Positions 32,253 through 32,741 of a stretch of DNA of 64,000 nt are shown piece by piece; the stretch's first letter is position 1, and each line of letters starts with the position of its first letter. The notes under the pieces are model-generated. The model was given only the letters and a program-made list of their open reading frames with translations, made no database searches and was not told the DNA's origin. This DNA comes from Serinicoccus sediminis (GTDB taxonomy: Bacteria > Actinomycetota > Actinomycetes > Actinomycetales > Dermatophilaceae), in NCBI RefSeq assembly GCF_004153545.1, contig NZ_SDVA01000003.1, forward strand, positions 124,001-188,000, written 5' to 3'. The position numbers and the translations under genes were made by a program.

Positions 32253-32325
32253 GCGCCTATAGCTCAATTGGCAGAGCAGCTGACTCTTAATCAGCGGGTT
32301 CGGGGTTCGAGTCCCTGTGGGCGCA
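32253..32325 (+). tRNA. tRNA-Lys (anticodon CTT), phage attachment site
   Basis: Complete cloverleaf: acceptor GCGCCTA with TGGGCGC, D-loop AATTGGCA, anticodon stem GCTGA/TCAGC with loop CTCTTAA (anticodon CTT at 32286-32288), T-loop TTCGAGT; CCA is encoded at 32326-32328. TAGAGT at 32234-32239 is a probable -10. Phage genes start directly after it, so the 3' half is probably the left attachment site with the phage copy restoring the gene end. Confidence 0.97.
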
Positions 32326-32608
32326 CCACCACACCCCCGTCCGGGCCGTCGCCCGGGCGGGGGTTCTCGTCGTCTAGACCGAGCGTCCAGGTAGCCGGCA
32401 CGCCGTGCGCGACCTGAATCCGCTTCGCCACCGCGACCGCGTCGCCGGGGGCATTGGTCCCCAGCTCCCACGCCGCGACTGACTTCGGTCCGCGGTCGAT
32501 GCTCGCCGCGAACTCCCCCTGGGTCATGCCCAGCTGACGCCGGATCTTGCGAATCCGGTCCCCGAACGTCCACTGGGGGATCATCGCCCCCGCCGTCTGC
32601 GTACTCAT
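32291..32608 (-). CDS. XRE-family phage repressor whose 3' end lies in tRNA-Lys
   Basis: 105 residues from ATG 32608. FGDRIRKIRRQLGMTQGEF and DRGPKSVAAWELGTNAP form a Cro/C1 helix-turn-helix. The gene runs leftward into the tRNA: its last 11 codons (VRPQGLEPRTR) and the stop are the complement of the tRNA-Lys 3' half. ATG 32608 is chosen because TAGGTT lies 7 nt upstream with a TTGACT -35 box 18 bp further, a leaderless promoter. In mycobacteriophages with integration-dependent immunity the attachment core likewise lies inside the repressor gene, so that integration exchanges its C-terminus; the lysogenic repressor there is of similar length (about 103 residues). The same may hold here. Confidence 0.75.
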   Translation of the reverse strand: MSTQTAGAMIPQWTFGDRIRKIRRQLGMTQGEFAASIDRGPKSVAAWELGTNAPGDAVAVAKRIQVAHGVPATWTLGLDDENPRPGDGPDGGVVVRPQGLEPRTR

Positions 32609-32615
32609 GACGGTA

Positions 32616-32648
32616 AACCTAGTCATACCTACACAAACTAGTCAACCC
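32616..32648 (-). promoter_or_regulatory. Leftward repressor promoter with two operator words
   Basis: Minus strand -35 TTGACT (32645-32640), 18-bp spacer, -10 TAGGTT (32621-32616), ATG 7 nt further. CTAGTCATACC (32619-32629) overlaps the -10 and the variant CTAGTCAACCC (32638-32648) overlaps the -35. Binding of the repressor to these would autoregulate it. Confidence 0.6.
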
Positions 32649-32685
32649 CTAGGGGTGAGGACGCCACGCCACGCGGCGAGGGTGC

Positions 32686-32741
32686 TTGACCCGTATCGCT
32701 GGGTATGTCTAGAGTCACCGACCATGACCACTAGGCATACC
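32686..32741 (+). promoter_or_regulatory. Rightward early promoter with two operator words
   Basis: -35 TTGACC (32686-32691), 18-bp spacer, -10 TAGAGT (32710-32715). GGTATGTCTAG (32702-32712) overlaps the -10; its inverse-complement form CTAGGCATACC (32731-32741) lies within the first codons of the following gene. Together with the leftward pair this gives consensus CTAGnCATACC, the likely operator of the phage switch. Confidence 0.6.

Follow-up and report, generated by a model that had tools for sequence, protein, structure and literature searches.

A Serinicoccus sediminis prophage repressor gene that ends within its tRNA-Lys attachment core: a probable integration-dependent immunity switch

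The 40.6-kb prophage at the tRNA-Lys gene of Serinicoccus sediminis very probably carries an integration-dependent immunity switch of the BPs type, in which the attachment core lies within the repressor gene and integration exchanges one repressor C-terminus for another. The anatomy of the switch, comprising the core, the junctions, the stop-codon change, the tail, the gene order and the related free phages, is directly visible in the DNA, and this part of the class assignment is held with high confidence; the mechanism is held with moderate confidence. The DNA analysed (the window) is a stretch of 64,000 nucleotides, C36:124001-188000, and the right junction, which lies outside it, was read from the same contig. 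The interval considered in the original prediction, 32253-32741, holds the left half of the switch only.

At the left junction, a helix-turn-helix ORF runs into the host tRNA-Lys gene (Table 1). Its end was said to be the complement of the tRNA 3' half, and the ORF and ARAGORN coordinates show this to be exact, the tRNA containing the stop codon together with 35 nt of coding sequence, or 11 codons and 2 nt. Read from the ATG at 32608, the protein has exactly 105 residues, as first stated; from an in-frame ATG upstream, at 32626, the prophage form has 111 residues and the viral form 139. A search of the genome with a stretch of the window showed that the tRNA 3' half recurs from C36:196864 on, and the two core copies are perfect over 38 bp and 40,575 bp (40.575 kb) apart, so that the core sits inside the repressor gene as predicted. 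Because the next best repeat in the comparison is 15 bp, and because the attachment site of a congener with an identical tRNA (G478) is uninterrupted, this repeat of the tRNA 3' half upstream of the integrase gene is not due to chance. In the search listing, a further congener (G257) spans the join with an 88% match. The attB site overlaps the tRNA gene, whose 5' part comes from the host and whose 3' part is re-supplied by the phage core, and ARAGORN, Rfam and the junction sequences agree that the tRNA is left intact after integration. At 31996-32112 of the window, a 51-bp unit is present in 2.3 tandem copies (97%) within an ORF at 31003-32151 (+), where it encodes the in-frame 17-residue repeat ERWAAQEERVFTADRTR.

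Table 1. Features of the left junction and the adjoining regulatory region (window positions).
Feature	Position	Strand	Details
Host tRNA-Lys(CTT), the attB gene	32253..32328	+	ARAGORN; Rfam RF00005, 68.4 bits
Immunity repressor, prophage form, 105 aa	32291..32608	-	Pfam HTH_3, E 1.1e-5; PHROG 2328 (transcriptional repressor), E 2.9e-19
Repressor stop codon TGA	32291..32293	-	Reads TGG in attP; its third base (32291) is the host base adjoining the core
attL common core, 38 bp	32292..32329		Identical to the attR core, C36:196867-196904 (L008 12868-12905)
Terminator-like hairpin, 14 pairs, loop 4	32333..32364	+	Just 3' of the tRNA; repressor codons 82-92 (NPRPGDGPDGG)
Third operator-like site	32619..32629	-	Motif copy next to the repressor start
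Candidate PR, promoter-like TTGACC-18-TAGAGT	32686..32715	+	Precedes the divergent early genes; consensus match only
Operator-like inverted repeat	arms 32698-32712, 32731-32745		15-nt arms, 93% complementary
Divergent Xis/Cro-like gene	32724..32924	+	Pfam MerR/HTH_17 (MerR E 3.2e-11); PHROG 66, E 1.7e-9

When attP was rebuilt in silico from the phage right end, the core and the phage left end, the repressor frame stayed open for 133 residues, 28 of which form a tail beyond the core (WFGVSAGQELAEGVVMPLPSRDDLAAAS, ending DDLAAAS). Immediately before the core, the host has a T where the phage has a C, and the repressor strand accordingly reads TGA in the prophage and TGG in attP. Integration thus swaps the repressor C-terminus, as originally proposed, from that of a 133-aa form in attP to that of a 105-aa form in the prophage. 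The integrase gene, which was expected next to the repressor in attP, follows on the same strand, with 89 bp between the viral repressor stop and the integrase ATG. The PHROG 2328 model scores the prophage form at 70.1 bits over model positions 2-100, and the attP form at 76.6 bits over positions 2-122 of 128, covering most of the tail. A frame of 133 residues that continues past the core to a different C-terminus, and is then followed by the integrase gene, excludes by sequence an attP in which the repressor stops before the core or keeps its end, as well as one with integrase and attachment site elsewhere, and the BPs-type reading is supported in consequence. The tail had been expected to be extended and perhaps Ala-ended: it is indeed extended and Ala-rich near its end (LAAAS), and the final residue is Ser, not Ala.

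The gene divergent from the repressor was originally described as Cro/Xis-like, and it matches MerR/HTH_17 in Pfam and, in PHROGs, family 66, an excisionase and transcriptional regulator, consistent with that description. Between 32200 and 33000, one promoter-like site was found (mean of 0.0 in shuffles), and the inverted repeat at 32698-32745 overlaps both this candidate PR and the beginning of the xis/cro-like gene. The motif GGTATGWCTAG has three copies in the window, one of them with a mismatch, always between or beside the repressor and divergent genes, and the copies at 32702 and 32731 are part of the 15-nt inverted repeat; as the motif was drawn up by eye from this same region, the count of 3 against 0.21 expected is not independent of it. 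The motif is absent from the right-junction region (L008). The third operator-like site spans the in-frame upstream ATG of the repressor gene, whose product starts there (111 aa) or at the next ATG (105 aa), and the site may have a part in autoregulation.

The arrangement is not confined to this genome. An integrase search of the host's order gave some match in 392 of 396 genomes, many of them weak and taken here to be chromosomal Xer-type recombinases. From the better or top integrase rows, 26 loci were hand-picked and fetched, making 27 with the present one, and these do not constitute a random sample: rows near contig ends were mostly omitted, as were some others, a 4-kb piece from G317 was not included, and G293 and G153 were added for a repressor match on the same contig. 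Eight loci with no tRNA-overlapping repeat among the five best listed were dropped (G276, G090, G212, G071, G191, G077, G304 and G034, the last on a short contig). At 16 of the 19 resolved junctions that remain, each with a tRNA-overlapping repeat, a candidate repressor ORF enters the core, the others being G249, G270 and G138; the 16 include G062 and G385, with the integrase more than 1.3 kb from the core, G334, where the tail runs past the start of the integrase match, and G263. In Pfam, ten of these repressors match HTH_3 (G262 below the cut-off), five match BetR and that of G263 has no match. The HTH_3 and BetR sets do not overlap, and both hold the same position at the core in an alignment of all 16, as if repressors had been swapped around a fixed att module. 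An order-wide search with the repressor itself gave matches in 56 of the 396 genomes, mostly with weak scores, and a scan of genome contigs gave seven loci, with matches covering only the helix-turn-helix or the tRNA-coded stretch. Finally, contig C1 of G063 (L115-L117) contains a 664-bp direct repeat of the core and following DNA, together with several integrase pieces and a third core at tRNA-Lys, an arrangement suggestive of a further, decayed element in tandem.

Each of the 16 candidate repressors ends differently in the prophage and in attP; this by itself discriminates little because four other ORFs entering a core (G000 frame 2, G249, G263 frame 0 and G270) do so too. In ten of the 16, the present one included, TGA becomes TGG or TGT, the only altered base being the third of the stop codon and the first past the core; in two more TAA becomes TAT or TAC. 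The first departure of attP from the host tRNA falls within the prophage stop codon in 14 of the 16 (all except G263 and G334), as if the need for an open viral repressor frame limited the length of the core. The viral tails add 10-82 residues, lengths that are no evidence in themselves since they approximate the read-through expected in GC-rich DNA. As to their ends, Ala is the last residue of ten of the 16 (Ala-Ala in six) and is lacking there in six. For 945 background ORFs, selected by a simple rule, the figures are 16.7% (Ala) and 3.6% (Ala-Ala), and 6 of 32 ends in the other two frames are Ala. The binomial probability of 5e-5 for Ala is only a guide, as the sequences are related. Nine of the 16 integrases also end in Ala.

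In the free phage, the repressor and integrase genes would be neighbours on one strand, with the attP core in the 3' part of the repressor gene, such that the protein made would have 133 residues and a 28-residue tail beyond the core. The integrase would recombine the core with the tRNA-Lys gene, where the host base beside the core would turn TGG into TGA, removing the tail and leaving the 105-residue repressor, and integration would part the integrase gene from the repressor's promoter region. By analogy with BPs, the tail would serve as a degradation tag and render the viral form unstable, the short form would be the stable, active repressor that confers immunity, and the integrase would likewise be tagged through its ALSAA end; the host's tmRNA tag, ANSKRSDFALAA, ends in FALAA. 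The repressor would then presumably act on the operator-like repeats between its gene and the xis/cro-like gene. The terminal Ser of the viral tail (LAAAS), as opposed to the AA of ssrA-like tags, counts against the tag, and is not fatal to it given that Angel's repressor ends in LDKAS. It has also been considered that the switch depends on integration while the tail keeps the viral form from binding DNA or oligomerising instead of marking it for proteolysis. A LAAAS end is not a canonical ssrA end, and some M. abscessus prophage repressors of this class have no ssrA-like tag in the available text of PMC8092301, whose authors nevertheless presume other degradation signals there. With the two BPs forms binding DNA alike and the tail working by degradation, in the available part of PMC4557955, and with Ala ends enriched among the related tails, a binding-blocking tail appears rather unlikely.

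It is quite improbable that the element is an ordinary tRNA-site prophage whose repressor overlaps the core by chance, both forms being equally stable and active and the overlap having no regulatory role. Chance ORFs do cross the complements of GC-rich tRNAs and change ends, as the four non-repressor ORFs illustrate, and the tail lengths fitting read-through and the terminal Ser would suit such a prophage as well. Against this, it is a candidate repressor, and no other gene, that occupies the core at 16 of 19 resolved junctions, Ala ends are enriched in the related viral tails, the repressor family model PHROG 2328 extends over most of the tail, and in BPs this very arrangement demonstrably works as a switch (PMC4557955, available part). 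The presence of the same layout in 15 further prophages of the order suggests a common design of lysis-lysogeny switch in these hosts, and no mycobacteriophage oddity.

With no integrase seen on the left side, one had been expected at the far right end, and it lies just there, past the right edge of the window: a tyrosine integrase gene at C36:195856-196692, on the minus strand like the repressor, encodes 278 aa ending in RRTVVALSAA and starts 174 bp from the right core. As to whether it could work without arm-type sites, as integrases of the BPs class do, Pfam detects Phage_integrase (118-263, E 8.8e-18) and, below its cut-off, Phage_int_M (48-101), and no other family. An integrase search of the genome itself gave three matches, those listed including C36:195859-196692 and one on another contig. 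Several of the ten ORFs scanned between the junctions match terminase, portal, capsid, tail and endolysin families. A record of 40,402 bp in a viral collection, with repressor and integrase at 100%, is the same prophage; in comparisons with 9 and 9 viral loci, the free form of the phage was not found, and this record was the sole near-identical one. A defective remnant that no longer excises, its repressor end a fossil, would explain why the excised form was not seen among the viral loci compared, and is quite unlikely given that structural, packaging and lysis families are matched, the integrase frame is uninterrupted for 278 aa and the two cores do not differ.

Beyond the integration-dependent switch, the repressor codons that precede the core contain a hairpin, and it is given a little better than an even chance that the opposite strand dictates these codons and that they encode an intrinsic terminator for the host tRNA gene, in which case the PRPxGPDGG motif would be the shadow of an RNA hairpin and not a protein feature. 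This motif or a close form of it precedes the core in eight of the 16 repressors by the present count. The hairpin of the present prophage has a fold z of -5.1 against dinucleotide shuffles and of -3.22 against synonymous recodings, none of 300 of which was as stable. It is followed by only 4 T in 10, and a strict scan of the region, requiring 5 T in 8, found no terminator; termination by the hairpin is, on both these grounds, a proposal only. Against dinucleotide shuffles, z falls below -2 on the phage side in 13 of 16 prophages. The native host sequence, displaced to the opposite junction, does the same in 13 of 15 cases; the hairpins of G062 and G262 lie inside the repeat itself, so that phage and host copies there are not independent.

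A covariation count on 21 hairpins was dropped because the MAFFT alignment failed to match stems of unequal length, and synonymous recoding was used for that reason. Scored against 300 recodings with the protein unchanged, the 16 prophages have a mean z of -2.29, with eight below -2 and the other eight (G004, G385, G303, G275, G371, G263, G153 and G334) not reaching it; 48 upstream windows of the same genes, as a control, give a mean of -0.06 and three below -2 (Mann-Whitney, 2.3e-6). On average, the hairpin in the repressor codons therefore exceeds what the protein requires. The same test on six phage records puts UmaThurman, EricDab, GMA5 and AGM1 below -2, Coeur at -1.3 and Angel at +1.6. 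Hairpins of at least 12 pairs are found in 14 of the 16 prophages (all except G263 and G334) and in 7 of 10 other loci (all except Angel, L027 and L025), and the junctions without a repressor in the core have 12 pairs at a low score of 25 (G249), 7 (G270) and 9 (G138).

Phages at tRNA sites in general may restore terminators. Here, integration carries the host's own terminator to the far end, and the phage would therefore supply a replacement: in the lysogen, this hairpin, lying in the repressor codons just ahead of the core, would terminate tRNA-Lys transcription, which would otherwise run antisense through the repressor gene and in sense into the early lytic genes. With a terminator in these codons, a single stretch of DNA would serve as protein C-terminus, core and tRNA 3' half, and antisense terminator. 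If the hairpin does terminate, it would explain how a phage can lie directly behind a tRNA gene while its lytic genes point in the same direction. No account of a terminator inside a repressor gene, or of terminators at tRNA sites, was found in the literature searched.

Integration-dependent immunity, reportedly defined in mycobacteriophages by a 2013 description, is a known type and not new in itself; the present work adds a case rebuilt from both junctions of a 40.6-kb prophage. The original prediction regarded such systems as little known beyond Mycobacterium phages, a view superseded by the Gordonia (PMC5559632) and Bifidobacterium (PMC6109161) cases. As far as the available portions of the papers go, of 27 Gordonia phages for which an attP is predicted, about half have integration-dependent immunity, and four Gordonia phages including GMA5 share an identical 37-bp attP at tRNA-Lys (PMC5559632); two Bifidobacterium prophages have it, with the viral form rebuilt in silico (PMC6109161), as do nine M. 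abscessus prophages, in some of which ssrA-like tags are lacking (PMC8092301). Likewise, in the available text, it has been proposed from synteny for a Streptomyces phage (PMC12243558), and Arthrobacter phage Galaxy has a similar layout, but with attP outside the repressor gene (PMC5513430).

Among 50,697 phage records searched, the repressor matches 62, all at less than 60% identity, and none of them a Mycobacterium phage. Four cover at least 80% of the query, namely two records each of UmaThurman (41% identity) and Coeur (38.9%), and the largest group comprises 32 Brevibacterium phage records at 73% coverage. The integrase matches 491 records, the best from small Gordonia phages (54%), with cluster G mycobacteriophages such as Angel at 42%. 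In UmaThurman, EricDab, Coeur, GMA5 and Angel, the divergent gene, the repressor gene with a tRNA-like core and the integrase gene stand in a row, GMA5 having one extra gene between the last two; Brevibacterium phage AGM1 has the same gene order, with an annotated integrase that is a 65-residue fragment. Coeur's repressor crosses the core as VVVRHQGLEPRTRWFGV (EPRTRWFGV) and ends in VVAA, and the WFGV after the core, common to both phages, may be a matter of conserved DNA at the integrase site and not of protein.

The closest mechanistic parallel is to BPs and Angel of cluster G, which, going by the available part of PMC4557955, likewise have attP in the repressor gene, repressor and integrase genes in tandem, a divergent Cro/RDF-like gene and a tRNA attB. 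Operators lie in their repressor-cro gap, each of two half sites and a spacer in BPs, and the repeats found here, known from sequence, resemble them. The viral tail has 33 residues in BPs and 28 here, and the host base beside the core makes a stop from a Cys codon in BPs and from a Trp codon here; Angel's repressor, at 136 residues, is as long as BPs gp33 is stated to be in the same text. The attB site, in contrast, is tRNA-Arg there and tRNA-Lys here, Angel's integrase is 42% identical over 93%, and no strong hairpin precedes Angel's core. UmaThurman, published as a case of predicted integration-dependent immunity (PMC4929511), is alike in its repressor (41% identical over 92% of the query) and in the hairpin before the core, and unlike in being a 50-kb phage with a tRNA-Arg site. 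The two Bifidobacterium prophages, Bb423phi2 and 689b-1, are likened by description only: in the available text of PMC6109161, the evidence comes from prophages with the viral form obtained in silico, the tail has 18 residues with an ssrA-like tag and the site is tRNA-Met. Finally, Coeur, EricDab and GMA5 share with the present prophage the row of divergent gene, repressor and integrase and a hairpin before the core, their genomes being 16-18 kb as against 40.6 kb and their tails different. The integrase is 54% (EricDab) to 49% (GMA5) identical, with neither phage among the 62 repressor matches; GMA5 has its 37-bp attP at tRNA-Lys too (PMC5559632, available part), and Coeur, whose repressor is only 38.9% identical over 81%, matches the core at 36 of 38 bases and has the EPRTRWFGV join.
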